The notes below the pieces were generated by a model that saw only the letters and a program-made list of their open reading frames with translations, did not search any database and was not told the DNA's origin. From positions 1 through 64,000 of the forward strand of contig JAJTUQ010000007.1 of assembly GCA_021399445.1 (NCBI GenBank): a stretch of 64,000 nt of DNA, written 5' to 3'. Position numbers and translations under genes: made by a program. The DNA comes from Xylogone sp. PMI_703. Its lineage: Eukaryota > Ascomycota > Leotiomycetes. Shown here one piece after another: positions 6,917-57,844 of this stretch; within the stretch, counting starts at the first letter, position 1, and every line of letters starts with the position of its first letter.

Positions 6917-9900
6917 TTAGGAATGACCTGTCGTAACTAGTCTGATGAGATTAATGAGGACTTTGATGATTGCTTGCCTCGAGCTATTCCTCCATGTAGA
7001 TTTTGCTTTCCACCAGTAACACACGAAATCAACCAAGTGGCCTCGCATGAGCAACGCCTTTGCTAGACCTTTCATTACGCTTATTGTCAGGGGATGATTC
7101 TCACCGAGCTTCATCTGGCATCCTTCTAAGGCGCGTTTGTAGTAATCGCATGCCTCTTCATAGGAGCCTTTCTTCCTATATGCATGTCCAACATCACCCA
7201 GAGCCTGAAACACCAAAGGATGGTCTTTGCCAGCAACCATTTTACGCCGCTTTGTTACTTCTTGAAGCTGTTCGAGGCCTTCATTACATTTCCTTTTGCG
7301 TACTAAAGTCCTCCCTATTCCTTGAGTGGCATCAAGCATTATTGAATGATCTTTCATGTTTCCTCCTTCGAGTTTCTCCACCACGTGCCGATATTGTTTT
7401 AAGGCTCCATCGCAATCTCCAGATTTCTCTGAAACAAGCGCAAGGCCATTCACAGCCATAAGGGTCGATGGGTGGTTTTCTCCGACTGCTTTCTTTTGTC
7501 CGGCTGCGACTTCTTCATATAACTCTCTAGCATTTTGGTATTTTCCTTGTTTGCAGTAGATACTCGCAATGTAGCACTTCGTCGTGAGGAGGTAAGTGTC
7601 ATCCGCTCCTGCTTCTCTATCCCCTATAAGGACTTGGTTGTACAATTCCAGTGCCTTTTCGTATTCCCCGAGAAGCTCCAGTACTGTGGCTTTGCCGAAC
7701 TTTGCGGCGAGAACAGCCGAATTATCTTTTTTTGGTCCACTTAGTTCGAGTCCTAGATGCGATTTCTCGAACCATTGTAGTGCTTCACCATATTTGCCTT
7801 GTTCGCGCAAGACCCTTCCTAGATTGGTCGCTGTCGGGAGCTCGCCACGGGTCTTCGAATGAATTCTCCTGTATCCGGTATACACATTTTGGTATATTTC
7901 CTCAGCTTCACGATATCTTCCCAAGCGGGCCAATACATCTGCTTTGCCTGATGATGCGGAAAGAATAAAAGGATGATCATCAGTTTCACCAAATATGTCG
8001 TTGAGTTTATTCAAGACTTCACTGTACCCTTCTAATGCCTCATTGTATTTTCCCATCCTTTCAAACACACTAGCAATGCTATCCATCGTATTAAGTGTTG
8101 AATAATGGGTTTTACCCAAGGATGTTTCTTGGAGTTTCAAAACTCGACGATATAGCTCCAGAGCATCTTCGTATTGACCCAGGTACTCTAGCGTTATTGC
8201 TTTATCATGTTCAGTTTCTAGAGTCAAAGCGTGACTTGGTCCCAATGATTCCACTCTTTCTAAGTATATTTCATGAAATTCTGCCAGAGCCTTGGGGTAT
8301 AGGTTAATGTTTCTGTACAACACCGCGAGGCTCTGTCGAGTTTTGAGGGTTGATGGGTTGCTCTTCCCGAATTTGGACTTCTTCGCTTCCAATACAACCG
8401 CGTATTCTTCCTGAGCGCTTTCGTACTCTCCCTTCTCAAAGTACACATCAGCGATATGATGGCGTGCATCAAGAGCCATAGGGCTATCGTTAGACTCAAA
8501 TCTATCCAGCGCCTTTCTGCACCAGATGAGCGCTTCCTCGTACCTTCCACGGAGGCATAAATTCATTCCAAACGAATTCATGAATTGTAGATCCAGATCT
8601 TGGAGGTCGTCTACATTTTCAATATCGCACAGACCTCGCTCATACAGGAATGTCGCTTTCTTCACATCTCCAAGATATTCGTACGCTCTCACAAGATTGT
8701 ATGCAACATCTCGCATCTGCCGGTTGAGAAAACCAGTCTCTGGGATTGATTCAGAGAAGATCTTGTAACAGCAGTCAATATGTGGCAAAATAGAGCGAAT
8801 ATACAGTCGATTACCAGTGGTATTGTGGAGTTTGTTCTCAATTGTCGAAGTCACAATACCTATAACGTGACTCTGATAATCGGTCATTTCAATAGAAGGG
8901 AAGGCTTGAGTTCGGGCCCACTGGTGAAGCAGATGGTGCATGTAATACTTTCCAGTTTCGTCCTTGCGTAGGAAAGAAAGGGAAAGGAGTTCTCCAATCG
9001 CAGCTCCGATGGCCTCGTCGTCATCTCGAGTTACATGTTAGCTTTACGTTATATAGAAATCGGCTAAGCATGGGAATGGAGGAAGGTAGACATACTCATC
9101 CAGCCTGCACGCCCCTTTTTGCTTTGCAGTAGCGTAAGAGGAATATCTTTATTCCCAATCCATGAAAGCAAATGAAGAAGTTCCCGTGGGTTCTGACGAA
9201 GTTTATTCAGTGATAGCTCCCACACTGCATAAACATGATCCAGATGTGGTTTTATCTTATCATTTAGGCTTTTCTCATATTGTGAAATTGGTATTTGAGT
9301 TTTTTTCAAGTAGGCTCCGATTTGATCAAGAGCAAGTGGGAGGCAACCAATGGACCTGGCGACTGCTAGAGCAGCGTTTCTTGTATCTAAAATAATATTT
9401 CAGTAACATATTTGGAGCATATTGATGAGTCTAGAAAAGAATAACAAGCAGAGACGAACCTGGTGTGAATTTCTCCCCAGAAGCCTTCTTCAATAACTCT
9501 ATACTCTCTTCCTCTCCGATACTTTCTGGTACTTGTATTGGGTGGGATGCTCCCCGGACATTGTTTTTGCGACTAGTCACAAGGATGTGGCCTACATCTC
9601 GGGCCAGAATGTCAAGATAGCATGCGGCTGGGTCGTCGAAATTATCCAATATGAGTAGCCACCCGGGTTTGAACTCCTGATCTAGCCAATAACTAAGGCT
9701 CTTGGTATATGTAACTTCGCCTAAAGCCTCAATTAACTCATCGTGATCTTTGATCGGCTCAACAATATTGAATGTACGAGCGATATGGTAGTGGAGATTT
9801 TTCGAGATCCAAGTTCTTTCGTAATGCTGGACAATTGTCAATACTGCATCTTGGGCGCTGACTTCCAACTCTGCACTACTATCGGCGTTCATCCAGAAAA

Positions 9901-10349
9901 CTGCCGAGTATCTCTCCTCATGTATACATTTATTTGCATACTCCAAAGCAATCTGCGATTTCCCGGCTCCTGGGAGACCATAGAGGATTATTTCCTTGCG
10001 ACGCAACGATTTGTCGGTCACAACACCTTCAGGCCAGAATTCCAGGATGATTCCTTCGATTATTTCTTTTCTGCCTGTGAAATGACTACTTGGCAAATAT
10101 GGTAGCTGGGCCGGAATAGGATACTTCTTATCTACTTCACATAGCGGTCAGAGCAAATATCAGGAACAAAGGCTCAATACAACGTACCTTCTCCAGGGTT
10201 GTTTCGGCTTATGTTAATCGTAAGTAGAGATACTGTATCTTATTCATTTATAGTACTACTTACTATATGTGTACATCTCCAAACTTCTGTTCGTAACCTT
10301 GGATCCCGACATCGTTGTGATTATTAAAAGTTATATCCTTGGTGGACAT
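6917..10349 (-). CDS. NB-ARC/TPR NLR with N-terminal amyloid-like motif
   Basis: Five exons on the minus strand: 10349-10264, 10207-10188 (20 nt), 10131-9460, 9386-9096 and 9024-6917, encoding 1058 residues. All introns (56, 56, 73 and 71 nt) close in frame. Residues 6-28 form a short Asn/Gln/Gly motif (T-F-N-N at 7-10, V-G at 14-15, Q17, Q21, F23-G24, V26). The NB-ARC domain follows: P-loop G-L-P-G-A-G-K-S near 87-94, Walker B L-L-I-L-D-N-F-D-D near 194-202, sensor L-V-T-S-R near 219-223 and G-C-L-P-L-A-L near 273-279. From about residue 470 to 1025 run roughly a dozen ~42-residue kinesin-light-chain-type TPRs. Fungal NLRs of this type sense non-self through the repeats, oligomerise through NB-ARC and template an effector through the N-terminal motif. 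The PNP_UDP gene at 14089 carries the matching motif. The micro-exon and the AAG acceptor of intron 1 are the least certain parts. Confidence 0.85.
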
Positions 10350-11694
10350 TGGGGTAAAAGAAGAGCAACGGAATCCTTAGGATTTCCAATTGTAGAGGGA
10401 TGCAATGATACTCAACAGAAATGAAATAGGAATGAAGGCTAGTGTTTATGAACCTAAAACAACCTTAAACGGTGTTATTCCTCTACTTTATATTATTGGA
10501 AAAAGAAAGATAAGTATGAAGAGTTGGTTGGAACTGAAAGGAAAGTGCTGCTTCAATCATTATGCTGCTCCTCAACGAAAGGCAGCGAATAAAATTAAGA
10601 CTGTACTGTATACCGTGTAATACAGCCCCAGAATGTCTCCCCTGAAAGCTGAGTGATGTGTACGGGCTTAACAGTTATTAGCTGAACAGTTTGAAGGCAG
10701 CCTTACCATTGTGGCTATTTGTGTCTTACATTTCTAGGCCAATAGCGTCAGCCTAATAGACTAGCTAATCACCTTCACATGTCTATGTCGGTCTTCCCGT
10801 TGGAACGAACATGTTGGCAAGGCTAAGATTCTGCGGGTTTGTCGCTTGTGTACGTGTACTGTTCTAGACGAATGAAAAAAGCCGCCTACTTTGCCTTAAA
10901 ATTCATATTAGTTTTACAATTGTAAGTAAAATTATTATTTGTTGTAATTAATATTTTCGTGTATTTGAGAAGATCATCCTTCGAAGTGGGGGAATTTCGG
11001 TGTATAAATTTCTGCCACTTAAGTCTTTTCTGTCTGTCTACTGCACAAGGCTATCACAAGCAATATGTAGCTAGTGGTGAGTCAGGATTTAGCCCGTTGC
11101 AAGAGAATCGATTGTTTCAGGTAGCGATCATTTGGACTTATCAAAATCATCAAAAGATCCATATAGTTGCCTTTGTACAACCTAGTGCAACTGAACTTTT
11201 AGGATGGAGTACGCAGCCAGTTTGTATATGTCGTCTCATAGTTGATCTGATATGACCGAATATTGATTCCAGCAGAACACATTCACATTCTGTGAGGTTC
11301 CAGAAAAGAACGAATAGTATTTATCAAACTGGGATAGTGACACTCGTGAAGGCATTCTTGAAACAAAGAGATAAAGAAAGAAAGCATGTAGATTTCAGGA
11401 TTCAAGCATCCTGCAACATTCCACAGTATTTAATTATTGAAGATCAAGCAGCTAAGACAGAATCTCTATTCTGGTAATCCTTTCAACTTGGTGATTAGAG
11501 GGAGGATACCCTCAATAATTACTAATATCATTGAATTAAAATTTGTTATCTTAATAGTTTTGAGTGTTTTACCGCCTAATAGTGAAACTATACCTAGCAC
11601 CAAATCGTAAAAGGTAAGCATACAATCTCAGAGGGGAATAGTCCAGAGCATTTTTAGCTCGCATTCCCCGAAGGCTAAAACATGGCTTTCCAGA
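10350..11694. other. Intergenic, NLR upstream region
   Basis: Only short ORFs without coding character occur, and no repeats were recognised. It holds the NLR promoter on the minus strand, but no clear TATA box could be assigned. Confidence 0.4.
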
Positions 11695-13146
11695 TTATCT
11701 ACTGGATTTAACTGTATTGAAGTTATAAAGGGGAATAGCATCCTTCTTTGCATGCTGCCCTTTAAATTCCGGAAATACCAATCGACCTGCGCTGTTGTGA
11801 ATAGTTTCTGTATGCTTGAGAAACGGTAATCCAATTAATGCGTCATACTTGTAGTTTTCAACAACAACAAATTCCACATCAGTCCAGACCTTCTTTCTAC
11901 CATCAAAACTCCACCTAACGCTAATACACGGACACTTTTTGGATGTTGATCCATCCGCCATTAGGAGCGATTGGAAGCGATCTGAATTTGGATCCACAGA
12001 TATTCCGTGCGTTTCTAGCCATTCTGCTTTGATAAGATTGCAGCCGCCTCCTGTGTCAATTAGTGGTTTGATAGATTTGTTGTCCAATTTGCCCGGAAAG
12101 GTCAGAAAATCATCGTTGGCATTCTCATCAATCTTGCCGGAAACAACTTCTTCATCCTGGGCGCAGACTGAACACTGTGGTTCGGATCCGGAAAAGAGGT
12201 CCGGCTGATCACACTGTTAACAGTACTGCTAACTTAGAAGTTTAGAACAGATTATGCTCTTACCCGTAATTCTAAATTCTTTGCTCGGAGATTTGCATCA
12301 TCACCAAGGCCTAATCCAATCGCATGTTCGCTATTAGGTATCCGATCTAGCACAGCCGGATCACGGAACGCTGGCGAAGCCAGAAAATACTCTCTTATTA
12401 AATCTTTTAAAGTGGAATTTCCATTATGTATGATTTTTAACAACGTACTCAGCGCACGATCATGATCTACAAGTTTAATCTCGGAGAGAGCTTCAAGGAG
12501 ACGGTCCCACTCAGATGAGCCCGCCTCTAGAATAGCTGCCCGCCCAAGTGGGGAGAGTTGAAGGTAGACTGAAGTGGACAACTCTAAATGGCTATCATGG
12601 AAAAGAAATTGGTAGGTATTGCTTATTAGCTTGCTCTCCTGGAAAAAATTGTTTACGATCTTGGTTTGGCTTTAGTTAGCTTCTGGGAGGCTTTGCGCGG
12701 ATTTGCAACATCCTTACATCGCTATCGTATCGGAAATCTGCATCCAGAGGCATAGCCTCCGCAACCATTGCCGCATATCGCGCAGCAGCTGCTGCGCGAT
12801 ATGCGGCTTCTGCTGCTCTGAATGCAGCAACAACAGCCCTTTCTGCTGCGGTGTTACCCGTAGCAGAAGGTATAGACTGCACTATTGCATCTTCTGCGCT
12901 TGCTGCTGCATTCGCAGAGCCTGCTGCTGCTCCCATCGCTCTCGCAGCGTAACTAGGTTCCAGATCTCTAATCGGCACATCCCTGGCCACCTTGGATTCT
13001 ACTTCCTTTACAGCATGAAAGATACCCGCAATGAGTGTCGCCAGCTTCCCAAAACCGGCCTCAGGCGTTTGAAACGTGGTATCAGAAGAAGCCTCATCAT
13101 TAGAAAGAGGTGATAATGCATTAATAAGGGGATCGGCCGGATCCAT
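11695..13146 (-). CDS. Retropepsin-like aspartic protease with Ala-rich N-terminus
   Basis: Three exons on the minus strand: 13146-12718, 12638-12264 and 12213-11695, encoding 440 residues. Introns of 79 nt (GTAAGG donor, GCTAAC branch) and 50 nt (GTAAGA donor) are both phase 0. Residues 80-135 are an alanine/glutamate-rich helical segment. Residues about 150-265 form a helical domain of unknown type. The C-terminal part is a single-lobe retropepsin-like fold: the active-site L-I-D-T-G-G-G begins near residue 319, and a Y-D-A-L-I-G-L-P-F-L strand later in the domain corresponds to the conserved hydrophobic-hydrophobic-Gly motif. One lobe implies that it dimerises to be active, as in Ddi1-type or retroviral proteases. 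No RT or integrase lies next to it, so it is a host gene. It lies between the NLR and the PNP_UDP gene. A cysteine pair near residues 282-285 could bind metal. Confidence 0.78.
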
Positions 13147-14088
13147 TTTGTCTCTGGTGACGGAGGTGCTGGGAGTCTAAGATAATTGCCCAGCAAAACA
13201 GTCAAGGGGGGGCAAAGCAACATTTATCTCTCAAGTTTACTCTCCCGCTTAGGCTTTCATTGATATCAAAAACGGTTTTGCTTTTGGTAACTCGTTGAAC
13301 TTATCTCCGAATACGCTGCTGCGTTCCCTGTCGACAAGCTACAGCCCGCTCAGTAGACATACTCCTTCAAAGGTAGGATTTACTTTCGTTCGGTGTGCCC
13401 AACTCAAAATAAGGCTACGTTTTTGAAACTGAACCCGTAAATTATGCGGTGTTCTGTGATCATTGGTCTATGAATTAGCATTATTCCTCCCACGCATCTC
13501 GGTGGCTGCTAAGTATTCGCGGAGAGGTATGCATGGGTGCCCAATGTCGCCGACATATGGAGGTAATGAGCCGCAGGTTCCTTCTTTCACCTCCTTTTCA
13601 CCAAGCTAGTAACAAACCGTTTGCCTCTATTTTTCTCTGCGTTTGCTGTAAATAATATTGTCCCGGAAAGTTCGGTTTCTCGTTTTCCCTAGCATGTTTA
13701 GCATCGTATTTGAAAAGAGTCGAGTGTAATTCTATAATTACTGTACTACACTTCAGCAGCACAACAGAGAGGACTTTGAATGGCCTCATCGCAGAGGCCC
13801 CCGGTGATATTTCAAGATGCGTGCCGTGCCGACCCCCAGCCGATTTTCCATAGACTATCAGCATGCTACGTGGTTGACATCTCACGGCAAACATCCTAAG
13901 CCCTGCTCTTCCAGTCACTCTACAACAAATATATTTCTTTGGTACATCCCACTATGGATTCGTGATACGGGCTATTTCCTAGAGAGAATAGAACATGATT
14001 GAACAGCGACATAGCTGGCACAAACTGGCTCCAATTCATCTAAGGCCTTATTAAAGAATCTCTTACTTATACTGTATGACTTTGAAGT
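13147..14088. other. Divergent intergenic region
   Basis: Shared upstream region of the retropepsin-like gene (minus) and the PNP_UDP gene (plus). The short ORFs here lack coding character. No defined promoter element was found. Confidence 0.4.
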
Positions 14089-15376
14089 ATGTCATCCGCA
14101 CGGCCAATCGATCGAAGAGTCTTCGAGATTGCCATCATTTGTACCTTACGCATTGAGTCTGATGCCGTCGAGGCAACATTTGATGAGTTTTTGGAGGAAG
14201 GAGATCAGCCTCACTACGGTAAAGTGGAGGGTGATCCCAACTCTTACACGTTAGGCAAAATCGGCCAGCATTATGTTGTCCTGGCATATATGTCTAACAT
14301 GGGCAAAGTGAGCTCTGCTAGTGTTGCAGCTAGTTTTCGTGCTAGCTTCCCTAATATACGACTGGGGTTGGTGGTGGGCATTTGCGGTGGAGTGCCTCAG
14401 CCTACCCATGAGAGGGTAGAAATTTTTCTTGGGGATGTCATCATCAGCACAGGAGTTGTTCAGTTTGATCTTGGGCGGCAGTTTGCAGATAAAGTCATCC
14501 GTAGAGATACCCTCGAAGACAATCTCGGGCGTCCCAATTCTGAAATTCGCAGGTTTTTGCACCAAGTCCAAGGATGGAGAGGACGCACAAAACTTCAAAA
14601 GAGTATTTCTACAAGTATCGCACAGATTTGCAGTATGGATGGATTCGACGATTGGACATGCCCGCCGCTAAAGGAAGATAAGCTGTACCAGGCCAATTAC
14701 TATCACAAGCATCATGACCCGACAGCCTGTGCTGTCTGCGCGAAAGGTACTGGTGAGGATGGTGCAGCCTGCAATTCAGCCCTTACACTCTCTTGCGAAC
14801 AGCTGCAGTGTGATGAAAGCCAGCTGATATCCCGGAAACGGAAACATGGTTTGTCACTAGCCTCTGATTGTGCAAATCCCTCTTCAGGAATATCCGCTCC
14901 AGCGATACATTTTGGCCGTATTGGTTCAAGTGACTTAGTCATGAAATCTTCATTACATCGAGATCGAATTGCAACGCAAGAGAAACTGTTGGGCTATGAG
15001 ATGGAAGGTGCTGGCGTATGGGACAACTTCCCGACTATTGTTGTAAAAGGGGTATGCGACTATGCGGACAGTCACAAGAATAAGAAATGGCAAAAATTTG
15101 CCTCAGTTACCGCAGCAGCTTGTGCTAAAGCCTTGCTTTGTGAGTGGCGAGCGATTGATAGAGCGACAACAACTCCAGTATATTTGGACAAGAGTATGGA
15201 TGAATATCAACGGAGAAGCGCACTGGACTCCAGTTCTGTAAGCATTCTAAAACCATACACCAGCCTGATACATACTAACAAGCATGAAATAGGATGAAAG
15301 GGTTACATTCAACAACTATGGCAAGGTTGGGAACCAGGCGGTTAATCAGACCTTTTACGGAAGTGTGACCTTCTAG
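14089..15376 (+). CDS. PNP_UDP-domain effector with C-terminal amyloid-like motif
   Basis: Two exons, 14089-15237 and 15293-15376, encode 410 residues. The 55-nt intron is textbook: GTAAGC donor, TACTAAC branch, TAG acceptor, phase 0. Without splicing the ORF would end at 15297. Residues about 10-360 are a purine/uridine phosphorylase-like (PNP_UDP_1) domain, seen in F-E-I-A-I-I-C-T-L near the start, V-V-G-I-C-G-G-V-P near residues 101-109, Y-E-M-E-G-A-G-V near 302-309 and a late K-G-V-C-D-Y-A-D-S. In fungi this domain commonly sits at the N-terminus of NLRs as the effector, but here it stands alone. The last exon encodes 27 residues with T-F-N-N at 388-391, V-G at 395-396, Q398, Q402, F404, G406 and V408, matching the N-terminus of the NLR at 6917-10349. 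Likely activity: nucleoside or nucleotide glycosidic-bond cleavage once templated by the NLR (inference). Confidence 0.85.
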
Positions 15377-31332: not shown

Positions 31333-32095
31333 TGTCATGCACTCAATCTTATGAAGAGGACCACCCTATTGCTAAGTTCTTTAGTACTGCCCAAACTACT
31401 TTGTCTACTCACTTCTCATTTTATAAGAAGACCATCAGTATCGCCGTATACCCATATGCTTTATTCTTCATTCAAATATTCAGTTTCAAACGGAGTACTT
31501 ACGCTGCACTAGCATGAAACCAGGGATGGAACGCACCACTGTTCTAATTGGTCCTTAGGAAGACCAAAGCTAGAACTCCTGTTTCAAACCCTGGTCACCA
31601 AAACACGTTTATCACAAAATCCGCAGCCTTGCGCTTCTTGTTAGTACTTTCATTAAGTCACACCTAGTAGTTCTAGGAGGCTGCCTGTTTACATATTATT
31701 GTTCCCTCTCTTTCTGTTTGGCTTCCTTAAAGTTTGCCACCAGAGCCCCGAGATTGCCTCAGAGAATTTCACAACAGATATCAAACCGGAGTGAGTGAAT
31801 TTTTCAGGCGAGCGCGAGAAAATTAAGATTTAGCTCTCATAAACTAACTCACCAGCCGATGAATCCCGATTTCGATACCCCAACGGTCCGAAGAATTCTA
31901 AGACGCCAAGAGCGTCCATATCGCGTCAGTTCATTAGCAAAAAGTTGGTTCCGGTGTAAAATCTTCTTGAACCTCAAGAGTATATTAGCAATTCTTTTAT
32001 CAAGGATACACTCCAACGACTGATCATATGCAGAAATATATCTTCAAGTTAGAACGCGCCCGTCAGCTCAATTATATCATACCCTCAGTGAAGGA
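31333..32095. other. Divergent region between dead and intact HET genes
   Basis: Contains the imperfect palindrome at 31519-31595 and the promoter of the plus-strand HET gene. No ORF with coding character. Confidence 0.4.
31519..31595. repeat. Imperfect inverted repeat, about 77 nt
   Basis: Outer arms ACCAGGG/CCCTGGT, middle arms GTTCTA/TAGAAC and inner arms TTGGTC/GACCAA are nested around a short loop near 31554-31561. The spacing is nearly symmetrical, so a long bulged hairpin could form in RNA or a cruciform in DNA. Could be a tiny non-autonomous element or a structured leader. No coding role. Confidence 0.45.
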
Positions 32096-34174
32096 ATGAT
32101 CCGTCTCCTCAGACTCCGTCCAGGCAATTCCTTAAGAACAATCGAATGTACTTTCACATACGCCGACCTTAATAATCTCAATTTGCTCGATCCTGACTGG
32201 CACCCGCACCGTTTAGAACCTGACCCTCTGGACTCACCCAGAGGCTATGTGGCTCTCTCGTACACTTGGGGACAACAGCTTCCATCCGTGCCCATTATCA
32301 TAAATGGACGTATTAAGATGGTATCTGAAAACTTATATTTGGCGTTGCTCCATCTTCGCCAAAGGCGGTATAAAACCATTTGGATTGATGCTCTCTGCAT
32401 TAACCAAGATGATCTCCAGGAGCGAGCGGCGCAGGTACAAAGAATGAAAGATATCTATGAACAAGCGTTCTTGGTTTATATTTGGCTCGGCGACAGTGAC
32501 CGTTTCACCACTCGAGGTTTTGACGAACTTTCCAGGATGTTAAGCTATGCCTCTATGGGGATCCAGCCGGAAAAGTTCTTTGATTCTGGTTCGCCAATTC
32601 CGCAAAGAACGGAAATATTTAGATCAATCAGCGATATCGTCTACCGTCCATGGTTCCGTCGCATGTGGGTTATACAAGAAGTTTTAGCCGCCAAAAGCTC
32701 AGTTATGGCTTGTGGAAATGACGTAATGTTTGTTACAGATTTTTTGGACGCTATAAAATTTATGGTCGACGCAGGCGCGTTACGAAAGGTTGTTTCTCGT
32801 CATCCTAATAGACCCGAACTCACAGATGGCGGACCATTGATGAGGGCTACGAAGCAATTGGAGTTTCTAATACAAGCTAAACTGGAAAACTTCAGGAATA
32901 GCGGTTTTAAGCGAAATCTTCTGGATTTCTTAGCTGCTTCAAGATGGGCGGAAGCCACTGATCCTCGAGACAAGGTATATGGTATCCTTAGCATAGCAGA
33001 GGATGCTGCAACTTTGGGTTATCGGAACGAGAAAAATGAATGGTTTCCGTTCAATGTTGACTACACTATATCTAAGGAAAGAGTATTTATCAACGCGACC
33101 AAATCAATACTTTACACGAGTCAATCGCTAGAAATTCTGCTTTTTGCTGGAAAGACGCAAATGGAAAGCAATGGCCCCTCCTCATGGGTCCCCAATTGGG
33201 CAAGCAAAAACCCTGAGCCTGTCACTAGATATACGCCCGATTCAGGCCCGGACCAACGCTATGAAATGAACTCGAAGCTCTGGAGACCTTATCATGAATG
33301 CTCGCGTTCTTCAGATTGCTTGTGCGAGATGAGACGGCAGATCACCCTATGCTGCCCAGCGTCGTTTACCCTGGGTGCCAGCGATACACTGGCTGTCAGA
33401 GGAATACATTATGACACAATCACCGACGTGTCAAGAGAGTCATGGCCTAGCAACTCCCTTATCTATAAGGTCAACTTGAATTCATATCATGATGCAGTAG
33501 CTGAGTTGAATGATCATCTTGGATCAATCCAGGAGTGGATCGAAGATTGCACGCAGATCTCCACAAAATGTTCACCATATCCCACAGGGGAGATTACCAG
33601 TGAGGTTCTCTGGAAACTCCTTCACCCCGGTCCCGTTTTAGAAGATCCTCCAGAATTATATCCTCATGATGGACACCTTGGCAATATCAACGCTGTCCGT
33701 GCCACATTTGCCTTCACACGAGCAAAATACCTCTCTACAGGCCCAAGCGAACCTGGATTACCTGATAAGCTAGATACTCCAGTTGATTTACTCACTGAGA
33801 AGGACTTAGAAAGACTCCTTCCTCAGGTTATGAACCTGTTACCCTCGGATTCAGTGAAGAAATTTGCCACGACAAAGAAGAAGTATATGGGCCTCGTACC
33901 ACCAAACGCACGAGCGGGAGATCTCATCTGCATCATGTATGGCTGTGAAACTCCATTCATACTACGAAGGTGCGGCAGAAGAAAGGTCTTTGAGTTAATA
34001 GGGCATAGCAGTTTCCATGGCATTAGCTTCGATAACGTTGTTGTAGAGTCTAGCTTCCCAGGATCGAAGCCTGGTGAAGCTGAGAGGCCTTATGACCTAA
34101 CGACGCGCAATTGCCGTACAAATCGAATAATGTATACTAAACTCAAGGAAACACAAATATTTATTCTCATATGA
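32096..34174 (+). CDS. HET-domain (heterokaryon incompatibility) protein
   Basis: Intronless 692-residue protein from ATG 32096. The HET domain covers about residues 49-210: G-Y-V-A-L-S-Y-T-W-G (50-59), T-I-W-I-D-A-L-C-I-N-Q-D-D (94-106), V-Y-I-W-L-G-D (127-133) and R-P-W-F-R-R-M-W-V-I-Q-E-V (186-198). These are the standard three blocks of the family, which is TIR-like and induces cell death when expressed in incompatible fusions. The following A-T-D-P-R-D-K-V-Y-G-I-L-S-I-A near residue 290 is the usual second conserved block. The C-terminal half (about 380-692) is variable and presumably regulatory. It has no signal peptide and is cytosolic. It is intact, unlike the neighbouring HET copy. 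Confidence 0.9.
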   Translation: MIRLLRLRPGNSLRTIECTFTYADLNNLNLLDPDWHPHRLEPDPLDSPRGYVALSYTWGQQLPSVPIIINGRIKMVSENLYLALLHLRQRRYKTIWIDALCINQDDLQERAAQVQRMKDIYEQAFLVYIWLGDSDRFTTRGFDELSRMLSYASMGIQPEKFFDSGSPIPQRTEIFRSISDIVYRPWFRRMWVIQEVLAAKSSVMACGNDVMFVTDFLDAIKFMVDAGALRKVVSRHPNRPELTDGGPLMRATKQLEFLIQAKLENFRNSGFKRNLLDFLAASRWAEATDPRDKVYGILSIAEDAATLGYRNEKNEWFPFNVDYTISKERVFINATKSILYTSQSLEILLFAGKTQMESNGPSSWVPNWASKNPEPVTRYTPDSGPDQRYEMNSKLWRPYHECSRSSDCLCEMRRQITLCCPASFTLGASDTLAVRGIHYDTITDVSRESWPSNSLIYKVNLNSYHDAVAELNDHLGSIQEWIEDCTQISTKCSPYPTGEITSEVLWKLLHPGPVLEDPPELYPHDGHLGNINAVRATFAFTRAKYLSTGPSEPGLPDKLDTPVDLLTEKDLERLLPQVMNLLPSDSVKKFATTKKKYMGLVPPNARAGDLICIMYGCETPFILRRCGRRKVFELIGHSSFHGISFDNVVVESSFPGSKPGEAERPYDLTTRNCRTNRIMYTKLKETQIFILI

Positions 34175-54360: not shown

Positions 54361-57300
54361 ATGTCTATCGCGCTATCGCAGGCGTCACAGCTGAAGGCTG
54401 AAATTCGCCTAGCGCAAGCTGTCTCGCAGTTTGAGGCCGATCTATCTCGCGATCAGAAGGCTGCCTTTGGGACGTATAGAGCCCAAATGCTAAAATCACC
54501 TCCTACTATAAAAGACGTAATGCATCTTACAGCCGATATTGATCATCGCGCATGTAGAAATGTTGTCGGTCGCCGATGTTTTGGACCACGGTTGAGCAGT
54601 GTTTTACAAGCTGTCCAGCAATTTGCGGCTCTTGGTGATATTATAGTCGGTGGATCTCAAAACATGATAGCTTGTGGTGTCTGGTCATTGGTCCGGACGA
54701 CATTACTCGTTAGTATCTCTTAATTAGATCATATTTTAGTTGCTAACGTTTCTATAGCTAATCGTTACTGCCACTTCCTACCTAGACAAGTTGTCTAGTC
54801 TCTTTATGACTGTCGGACGTTCAGCGCCCCGTTACCAGATGATGGCCATACTTTATCCTCTATCTAAGAATCTGCAATCGAGTCTCTGTGAATATTTCAT
54901 AGTAGTGGTTGATATATGCCGTCAGCTGGTGAAGTTCACACGGATGTCCGCCTTAGGCTAGTTTGTATCGTCTATAAATGACGCCGAATTTAAGACTTAT
55001 CAATCAAAGCTCGACTTCTGGGCAAATTCGATAAAAGAAGAAGTAGGACTGTTAACTGCTCAGAGTATCGAGGAAATCTCACAAAGCAATGCTCGATTTC
55101 GATCCATTTTCACCAAGTCCTCTGAAGTGACGCTGCATTGCAAGAAGTTAAAGGCAAATATGCGCCTTCTCGATTCGTGTTCTACGTACGATTATGAAAC
55201 AGCGTGGAAGCAAACACGAAAAATTGGAAATGCAAATTTCTTTAGGGAAACTACGGCATACCAGAACTGGAGAGATCAGTCTTGTTCTTGCACATTAGTT
55301 TATACAGGCAAGCTAGGATCCGGAAAGTCTGTTTTACTAGCAAATATTGTGGACGACTTGAATCGCCTCACCAAAGATACAGATGTTACAGCCACATACT
55401 TTTTCTGTCGGTATGATATTACTGAAAGCTTGACAGCGAAAACAATTATCGGCTGTCTGGCTCGACAATTATTACAGTCAGTTCCTGATCTTTCTACTCT
55501 AGAAAGCTCCTCAGATGACGGCTTATCAATAATGAGTTTTGATGGAATATTTGATCTGCTTCAGCGTGCTCTCCCGCCTAAATTTAAAACTTACTTTGTT
55601 CTTGATGGCGTAGATGAGTGCAATGAGGTCGAAAGGCAAATACTGATTGAGCAAATTCATAAGCTGCAAGATAGATTTACGTTCCTACTCTGTATATCGG
55701 TTAGAATTGACACTGACAATGTCTTAAAAAAGAGCTTCGAAAAACTAGTTCGACCCGAAATTATATCGATTCCTGATGATAATCCTGATATTGAGGAATT
55801 CATTAGTACAGAACTAGAGAGTTGTATAATTTCTGGAAGGTTGGCGGTGGGTGACCCCCTTATCGTATTAGAAATACAAGACGCTCTGCTAGAAGGAGCT
55901 CAAGGGATGTTCCTCTGGGTTGCTCTTCAAATAGACTCTTTGTGTATCGAAAAAACGGATGAATCAATACGCAATGCTCTGGTGGATCTTCCGAAAGACC
56001 TCCCAAGCCTCTATACCCGCATTTTGCAACGATCAGAATATTTAGGTCAACGTTATCAGAGACGAATACTGGAGCTTATTACAGTAGCTCGTCGACAGTT
56101 GACAACAGATGAACTTCGAGAAGCTTTAAGTGTGGTTCCTGGAGATACTACTTGGAATCCCCAACGGCTTCTTAACAATATATATTCGGTTCTAGGCTGT
56201 TGCGGTGGCCTCGTTATTGTTGATGAAGAGGAATCAACAGTACGACTAGTGCACCACAGTTTCAGGCATTTCCTTCTCAGTGGATCCGAAGATTCCAAGT
56301 GCGTTCAATTCACTATAGACAGGGCACATAAAGAAATGGCGGATATTCTTGCTACCTACCTTAGTTATGGAGTGTTTGAAACAAAGATTTCCACATTCGT
56401 CACCCCTCAAATAATGGCCAAGTCAACGCCATCTCAAATCATAAGGTCAACTTTACAGCCTTCCACCGCTGCTCAGAGCATCGCGTTGAAGCTATTGAAA
56501 TCCAGAAAACAGCCTAATTATGACATTGGAAAAGTTCTAGCTGCGGCCGGTCCGCGTCCGAATTCCCCGGTAGATGAATTTCATCTTCTTTCTTACGCGA
56601 AGTTGAACTGTCTTTGGCACTCTTTGCAGGTCTCAAACCAAGACCTATTGATGGAAAAGCTTCTAGTAGAACTATTAGCGAAAAAATTAATCGAAGATTT
56701 CCCGAGTAATTACGATGGCCGGTTGATGCTTCCCTGGGCCGCTGCAAACGGGTGTTTAAGTATCGTCCGAATACTTGTCAAAAGGGAAGGAACTAATATA
56801 GACTGGAAGGATAATGACTACCGAACCCCGCTGATTTGGGCCACGATAAAGGGAAATGAATCTATTGTCAAATTGCTAGTAGATTATAGGGCAGATATTT
56901 TTGTAGTAGACAGGGGTGGATGGAATGCACTCCATTGGGCGGCTGCGAAAGGCTATGGAAACGTCGTCAACATGCTACTCAAGGGATATGATGATATTGA
57001 TCTTGATATTAAGACTGATTTGACGTTTGGTGGTGCAGTAACACCGCTAATGCTCTCGGCAAAGAATGGACATGAAGCTGTTGTAGAGGCGTTGTTAAAA
57101 ACGGGAGCTGATACCCGCAGAACTGACTCGAACGGATCGACGCCGCTACATCTAGCTATTAGTGGCAGGCATGATGGAGTAGCAGAAATATTAATTCGAC
57201 ATCACTCGCCCTTAGATGAAGCTAATAAGCTTGGGAATACCCCGCTGAAACTGGCAATTGACACGGGTAACCTAAAACTGGCAAGACTACTTATAGAGAG

Positions 57301-57844
57301 CGGAGCAAGTGTGGACTTTAAACCAGAGGGAGGAAAGGCGCCTCTATACTATGCCGTAAAATCAGGAAATACAGTTCTTGCAAAGTTGTTACTCTATGCT
57401 AGTGCCTCAATTGAGTGGATGGACGAAGAATACGCTTGGATCCAGAATGATCGAGATATGGCAAGGTTATTAGTGGAGCGAGGTACGGAAATCAACTGGA
57501 TGAGATGGGACGGTGCGGGAATAACAATACGAAATGGCTTTGACGCCAATACATTGACAATGCATATAAGGCAGATGGATGGGTCGTTGGTGAAGAACCG
57601 GATATTTGGACGTAAGCTGTTAAGGAAGCCACATTGGCACCGCCTTATATATGGTGATCCTGATGTTGATGATATGCTTCTTGATGCCCAATTGGAGCTC
57701 CGGTCTTCAATCAGAAATAAGAGGCCTTACAGAATTGACAGAGAAGCTCAGATACGTGACTACTTTTATTCTACTTCCGAGAGAGAGTTCACACTTCCTG
57801 TTATTATTGAAGAAGCCTCGGAAAGCCTCAAAATCACTTTGTAA
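54361..57844 (+). pseudogene. NACHT-ankyrin NLR with one in-frame stop
   Basis: Exon 1 is 54361-54708 and exon 2 is 54758-57844, separated by a 49-nt intron (GTTAGT donor, GCTAAC branch, TAG acceptor, phase 0). The joined frame would encode about 1144 residues but has one TAG at 54959-54961 (codon 184), in a conserved 'S-A-L-G-[Q]-F-V-S' context, so a single C-to-T change (CAG to TAG) explains it. The N-terminus is the DUF7708-type domain common in fungal NACHT proteins. A NACHT domain follows, with G-K-L-G-S-G-K-S near 300-307 and F-V-L-D-G-V-D-E near 397-404. At least six ankyrin repeats fill about 770-1030. The rest of the frame is intact, so the loss may be recent, or it may be a strain polymorphism or read error. 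Confidence 0.8.

Follow-up and report, generated by a model that had tools for sequence, protein, structure and literature searches.

A short terminal motif common to an NB-ARC/TPR receptor and a PNP_UDP enzyme of Xylogone sp. PMI_703: a candidate pair of the fungal amyloid-signalling kind

A contig of the fungus Xylogone sp. PMI_703 (JAJTUQ010000007.1) carries within its first 64 kb (positions 1 to 64,000 of the forward strand; this whole stretch is referred to here as the window) a gene for a NOD-like receptor (NLR) with NB-ARC and TPR regions and, close to it, a gene for a protein of the PNP_UDP phosphorylase superfamily. The question raised by this locus is whether a short motif found at the start of the first protein and at the end of the second makes the two partners. 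An N-terminal motif on an NLR with its counterpart at the C-terminus of an effector is the layout of fungal amyloid signalling, as a preliminary description of the locus had pointed out, and the layout was borne out: no effector domain was found in the NLR, and none ahead of its NB-ARC, among 25 of the 35 Pfam families listed, the effector is free-standing, and the starts of the two genes lie 3.74 kb apart, which is within the 20-kb proximity used by Wojciechowski et al. (2022; PMC9815663; statements on published work refer, here and below, to excerpts of the papers cited). It is considered probable that the two genes form an NLR/effector pair of this amyloid-signalling kind, with a PNP_UDP enzyme as its output. 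The pairing and layout are seen in the gene models read from the sequence, the domains, the active-site pattern, a similarity of the terminal motifs beyond chance and the proximity of the genes.

The N-terminal motif occupies residues 6-28 of the NLR (ITFNNHNDVGIQGYEQKFGDVHI) and the C-terminal motif of the PNP_UDP protein reads VTFNNYGKVGNQAVNQTFYGSVTF. It had been noted earlier that 9 of 17 ungapped positions are identical and that the match continues after a one-residue gap, and the same residues were found here on both sides, namely T7-F8-N9-N10, V14-G15, Q17, Q21 and F23 of the NLR and T388-F389-N390-N391, V395-G396, Q398, Q402 and F404 of the enzyme. With the gap allowed, 11 of 23 residues are identical (another count adds one serine preceding the motif). 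The shared pattern is [IV]TFNN-x3-VG-x-Q-x3-Q-x-F-(x)-G-x-V-x-[IF], and asparagine, glutamine and glycine together account for 8/23 and 9/24 residues of the two motifs by hand count.

The products of the two terminal exons align without gaps over 18 residues with a score of 48, which was reached by none of 20,000 double shuffles of these products (mean 18.3, maximum 44), with an extreme-value fit giving P 4.5e-5. When the full proteins were compared, the same motif alignment ranked top with a score of 50. Each motif was also compared with 6,019 tiles taken from all six reading frames of the window; the PNP motif was the best match to the NLR motif other than itself (48, the next being 33), and the NLR motif was likewise the best match to the PNP motif other than itself (48). 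A motif profile scan of 39 records (the window and loci L001-L038, 330,050 bases with overlaps) detected, at its threshold, no copy besides the NLR and PNP sites. Searching the genome with either peptide returned only that peptide; since the partner motif itself was missed, this search is too insensitive to say anything on diverged copies.

The resemblance could also reflect chance, or convergence of tails rich in N, G and Q, with the two genes being functionally unlinked. Several points weigh against the pairing. When the full PNP protein was shuffled, 49 of 1,000 shuffles reached the score of 50, which is borderline, and an unrelated tile scored 42 against the PNP motif, close to 48. The two genes do not adjoin each other, as minus-strand coding sequence lies between them. 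A Pfam scan found a known amyloid motif in neither window peptide, whereas the same scan recognised two sigma tails from the Xylogone genome submitted as pieces of 49 and 52 residues (NACHT_sigma, 42.0 and 26.4 bits, cut-off 27.6). In addition to these shuffles, the tile and the separation of the genes, chance is favoured by the finding having been selected from a reading of the whole window. On the other side, no shuffle matches the score once the termini are fixed beforehand by the known layout, the two motifs are mutually best among the tiles, and each protein is of a type to be expected in such a pair. The case therefore draws its strength from the termini being named in advance, because the known layout specifies them. 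Chance or convergence is regarded as quite unlikely.

The preliminary description derived the common motif from splice models of both genes, and these were rebuilt to the same coordinates and residue numbers. The NLR gene (10349-6917, minus strand) has five exons and a spliced product of 1059 amino acids, and the PNP_UDP gene (14089-15376, plus strand) has two exons and a spliced product of 410 amino acids. The features of the locus are:

10264..10349, minus strand: NLR exon 1, 86 nt, encoding MSTKDITFNNHNDVGIQGYEQKFGDVHI with the entire N-terminal motif; donor GTAAGT
10188..10207, minus strand: NLR exon 2, 20 nt, linker, inferred from the frame and GT-AG ends only
9460..10134, minus strand: NLR exon 3, NB-ARC (PF00931 match), in which P-loop GLPGAGKS and LLILDNFDD were recognised by eye
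9096..9386, minus strand: NLR exon 4, end of the NB-ARC, GCLPLALDQ
6917..9024, minus strand: NLR exon 5, an MHH motif recognised by eye, followed by TPR repeats up to the stop
11695..13146 (extent approximate), minus strand: intervening gene or genes, three open stretches, the last of which has an aspartyl protease domain of gag type
14089..15237, plus strand: PNP_UDP exon 1, 383 amino acids, phosphorylase-superfamily domain and Cys/His-rich insert
15238..15292, plus strand: PNP intron, 55 nt, GTAAGC...TACTAAC...TAG
15293..15376, plus strand: PNP exon 2, 84 nt, encoding DERVTFNNYGKVGNQAVNQTFYGSVTF with the entire C-terminal motif

GT-AG ends are present on all five introns of the two genes. 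NLR intron 1 is 56 nt long, NLR intron 3 has a poor donor (GTTCGT), and a branch-point sequence (TACTAAC) lies ahead of the acceptor of the PNP intron. The terminal exons hold the whole motif and little else, so that each motif stands at the expected terminus and fills an exon of its own, which speaks for the pairing. The motif would be missing from the proteins if these exons were unused, that is, if the PNP gene were read through its intron, which would give a different 19-residue tail without the motif, or if the NLR started downstream. The unspliced PNP frame is indeed open for 403 codons between stops, but the splice signals of the PNP intron and the GTAAGT donor of NLR intron 1 argue for splicing, and two independent gene models expose the same motif, so that unused terminal exons are very improbable.

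A recent exon duplication was considered as the source of the motif and was rejected. Seven of the 11 identical residues use different codons (the alignment as a whole has 9, 7 and 15 differences at codon positions 1, 2 and 3), and it follows that the protein sequence is shared and that this is not a recent DNA copy. The silent differences point to selection on the protein, or to convergence, rather than to recent copying. Since the intron phases beside the motif exons are unequal (2 and 0), a simple exchange of exons between the NLR and PNP genes is not indicated either. The coding sequence between the pair has a PF13975 match (28.5 bits, cut-off 28.2) that follows an alanine-rich stretch for which Pfam gave no match; as far as can be seen, the intervening gene or genes do not belong to the pair.

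In the NLR, both the NB-ARC and the TPR matches were above the Pfam cut-offs, with PF00931 at residues 84-305 (32.7 bits, cut-off 23.5) and TPR_12 in 10 stretches (E 9.9e-74); no tandem DNA repeats were found in the TPR part of the gene. The effector had been described beforehand as a phosphorylase-type enzyme. This part stood, the protein matching PF01048 (PNP_UDP_1) with 34.0 bits against a cut-off of 25.1, but this type of output is not new, as pairs of this sort were described in 2012 for sigma and in 2022 for PUASM motifs (PMC3321046; PMC9815663). The nearest solved relatives of the enzyme are adenosylhomocysteine/methylthioadenosine nucleosidases, although the matches are weak (best E 0.0024, three sequences at E <=0.1). 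Its E and D stretches line up in the alignment with EMEGA and SDTAD in the nucleosidase structure 4jos, and E23, E304-M305-E306 and D324 are invariant when the window protein is aligned with three of its paralogues from the Xylogone genome (4/4). These E and D positions are equivalent to catalytic residues in E. coli MTAN. An insert at residues ~204-241 has H206, H208, C217, C228, C236 and C241, which are also invariant in the four aligned paralogues, and may bind metal. The enzyme matched the PADLOC models PDC-M60C (5.8e-18) and 'Effector, PN-superfamily' (1.1e-10). Single-sequence structure prediction gave a mean predicted local distance difference test score (pLDDT) of 31. The protein, whose active-site pattern is kept, is perhaps an ATP nucleosidase. 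Reviews describe bacterial PNP_UDP as an immune ATP nucleosidase (PMC10197012) and ascribe to PNP_UDP a hydrolase activity towards ATP (PMC12881547), and an MTA/SAH nucleosidase activity was proposed earlier for the PNP domains of fungal NLRs (PMC4986451).

The layout belongs to a known kind in which the NLR motif templates the effector (PMC4344463; PMC5485727). Pairs of a UDP-phosphorylase and a STAND protein with sigma-type extensions have been described in Aspergillus oryzae, A. terreus and Magnaporthe (Daskalov et al., 2012; PMC3321046). Prion-like motifs at the N-terminus have also been named for NB-ARC-TPR proteins (PMC4986451), and, when two counts are summed, the NB-ARC type accounts for 87 of the 155 NLRs that carry amyloid N-termini in the Sordariales (PMC12258605). 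Neither the NB-ARC/TPR receptor nor the phosphorylase-type output is therefore new for such pairs, and the architecture has been unsurprising since 2012. Among the closest known arrangements is that of the PUASM pairs, which likewise have a motif of about 22 residues at the C-terminus of a PNP_UDP protein and at the N-terminus of an NLR; the peptides form fibrils and the effector-side motif acts as a prion in Podospora (PMC9815663). The NLRs reported there are of NACHT or NACHT-WD40 type, whereas the window NLR is NB-ARC/TPR. The sigma extension has GxGxQFN and GGTQNINT, with three repeats and about 40 residues (PMC3321046), in contrast to the one unit of 23-24 residues found here. The HET-s/HRAM and NWD2/HET-S systems have the same architecture and a short terminal motif (PMC3321046; PMC4518210), but the window effector has a single motif copy and is an enzyme, not a pore-former. 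HRAM and PP motifs lie mostly at positions 5-9 (PMC9815663), and the NLR motif of the window begins at residue 6.

Fungal amyloid motif families have been given as five sets and GDQN (PMC12261475). To place the motif among the families compared, it was scored with published consensus patterns, using 4,000 shuffles for each and making 14 tests for the motifs of the window. The PUASM pattern FxGxGxQxxGxGxF was not found on either side (p 0.59 for the NLR, 0.11 for the PNP), nor were sigma A (0.30 and 0.72), sigma B (0.90 and 0.20) or the GDQN pattern NxxxGxQYxxxGxGDQNxVSxxxxQxN (0.54 and 0.63). The NLR side has the F-x6-G-x-Q-x6-G-x-hydrophobic spacing of the PP motif of PNT1/HELLP/SBP (PMC3321046; PMC5485727), and the full PP pattern (18/19 residues) gave p 0.009 for the NLR and 0.42 for the PNP, but the core NxGxQxGxN is absent from both motifs (0.59 and 0.50). 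The earlier remark that the motif does not look like HET-s held: in the 2012 numbering (N1, hydrophobic 3/6/14/16, G10, positive 13, G17, N18), the pair as a whole fails the HET-s/HRAM pattern, with p 0.77 for the NLR, a weak fit of p 0.008 for the PNP and no Pfam match. Because 14 tests were made, two one-sided values near 0.01 do not amount to membership of a family.

As controls, PUASM peptides matched their own pattern (0/4,000; p 0.0010), and the two sigma tails of the Xylogone genome matched sigma B (0.007 and 0.0005) and, weakly, sigma A (0.09 and 0.06). Cross-matches occurred among these controls, the sigma tails fitting GDQN (0/4,000; 0.007), one of them fitting PUASM (0.011) and one PUASM peptide fitting the HET-s pattern (0.0097), so the consensus patterns are not exclusive. 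The element common to the window motif and to the PP, sigma and PUASM patterns is G-x-Q. Direct comparison of the window motifs with the tested PUASM peptide pair did not go beyond shuffles (p 0.31 to 0.78 in four comparisons). A PUASM peptide matched no family in the Pfam scan, which would be expected if there is no model for PUASM in Pfam. Compared with the sigma tails at loci L040 and L039, the PNP motif gave p 0.013 and 0.15, respectively, and the NLR motif gave 0.65 and 0.64 with the two tails; a sigma identity by way of the L040 tail was rejected as too weak and one-sided. The motif thus appears to be a variant fitting no described family among those compared. NLR12 (HRAM3-like) and PF01048_015 (four pairs), both PNP_UDP-linked motifs (PMC9815663), lie outside this comparison, and, no literature search having used the exact motif string, it is not claimed that the motif is absent from print. 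HRAM3 has H at position 3 (PMC4518210), whereas the PNP motif has N there (hand count, with G406 as position 19).

For the window pair we infer oligomerisation, amyloid templating, ATP as substrate and cell death, which would proceed as follows. Binding of a ligand by the TPR region would lead the receptor to oligomerise, and the N-terminal motifs clustered in this way would fold into a cross-beta seed. This seed would template the same fold on the tail of the PNP_UDP protein, which would thereby be concentrated and activated. The substrate then cleaved by the enzyme would be a purine nucleotide or nucleoside, with ATP the likeliest, and this cleavage would stop or kill the cell. Should the motif be a functional amyloid, it would add a candidate to the short list of fungal families, and the output, an enzyme activity in place of a pore, could be assayed directly as loss of ATP or another nucleotide.

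Six loci (L041-L046) were obtained when genomes of bacteria and archaea were scanned with the alignment of four PNP sequences, and in none of these loci was a window-like motif detected at the profile-scan threshold. Matched terminal modules were seen in two of the six. In Actinoplanes italicus (L043:1138-6119), where both partners were identified, a PNP-EAD2 protein adjoins an EAD2/VMAP-M0/NB-ARC/TPR protein, and this pair has the enzyme superfamily, receptor type and matched terminal modules of the window pair, but an effector-associated domain some 80 residues long serves as connector here in place of a short motif. In Thermocrispum municipale (L046:4446-5696) the PNP tail GKLKVTNVAHGPAGIQGVHIDRSVVIQN matches the N-terminus GSREVHNEAHIAGIQGDHVEGSTSIVN of the product of the next gene (from 5696) through a GIQG-centred motif (score 52, 0/4,000 shuffles). 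The partner product had no Pfam match at E <=0.01 and therefore cannot be called an NLR, and the locus is a candidate bacterial pair of the same layout. Its motif bears a weak resemblance to that of the fungus (p 0.016 to 0.79 in four comparisons). A. sandaracinus (L044), where a PNP-EAD2 protein lies downstream of a 1144-codon frame containing a P-loop, probably has matched terminal modules as well; no matched tail was seen by eye in L041, L042 or L045. What is new here is that the layout recurs among the enzyme's bacterial relatives by way of EAD2 (L043) or another short motif (L046), which also speaks for the reading of the window genes as a pair.

The A. italicus pair, joined through EAD2, also favours a rival reading in which the fungal motif is a homotypic interaction motif that joins receptor and enzyme without an amyloid fold, as is thought for EAD2 and death-fold domains. 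We consider this unlikely, as 23-24 residues are short for a domain of the death-fold type and the length, position and composition of the motif resemble those of described amyloid signalling motifs (PMC9815663; PMC3321046). If amyloid signalling is retained as the preferred reading, a wider proposal can be made tentatively, although it may well not hold: the motif would represent an undescribed fungal amyloid signalling family wiring an NB-ARC/TPR receptor to a nucleotide-destroying PNP, and would be one of several interchangeable connectors (sigma and PUASM in fungi; EAD2 and the Thermocrispum GIQG motif in bacteria) through which such pairs were split and rejoined in both groups. Whether closeness of the enzyme molecules to one another is all that counts, the connector being interchangeable, becomes testable because the bacterial relatives adjoin genes sharing a domain or another short motif. 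The case for a pair of the known kind is credible, and its interest lies in the unplaced motif and the bacterial counterparts.

The Xylogone genome (50.1 Mb, 25 contigs; the window opens contig C23) has at least 30 PF01048 and at least 23 NB-ARC matches, with 95 PNP segments matching at E <=1. Among 28 PNP loci read out of this larger number of segments (L001-L008, L017-L036), a recognisable C-terminal block was present in 23, or 20 after removing three duplicates, and absent from L001, L004, L006, L021 and L033. The window motif was found in none of the other PNP tails (0/20 loci), and the tail of the nearest paralogue (C20:2054063-2055148, 49 percent identity) lacks it. At least 8 of the 20 loci have a P-loop pattern on the same strand within 3 kb downstream (strict pattern; a P-loop alone is not proof of an NLR), which suggests a frequent joining of PNP to an ATPase of NLR type across the genome, the window holding a split version. 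In a Pfam scan of the genome at E <=1, no match was obtained for PP (PF17046) or HET-S (PF17108), PF11558 not being searched, and sigma (PF17106) was found in two places, one of them above the cut-off. The sigma motifs (L039 and L040, on C10 and C12) end open frames of 266 and 259 codons, and a frame with a P-loop, recognised by eye, lies downstream of the first. The P-loop patterns near PNP loci and the sigma motifs of the genome lend further support to reading the window genes as an amyloid-signalling pair. The L040 locus also has a long tandem repeat, the period of which can be read as GPTGS or ALQAQ.

As for other features of the window, its first 3 kb contain no CCCTAA and one TTAGGG, so there is no telomere array at the contig start, and positions 1-2000 have only 19 percent GC. 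A second NLR-type frame with NACHT and ankyrin repeats lies at 54962-57841 (plus strand), the profile scan having detected the motif nowhere in the window but at the NLR and PNP sites, and a HET-domain (heterokaryon incompatibility) protein is encoded at 32024-34171 (plus strand; PF06985, E 4.4e-34). With this HET protein and two NLRs, this end of the contig may serve in allorecognition or immunity.

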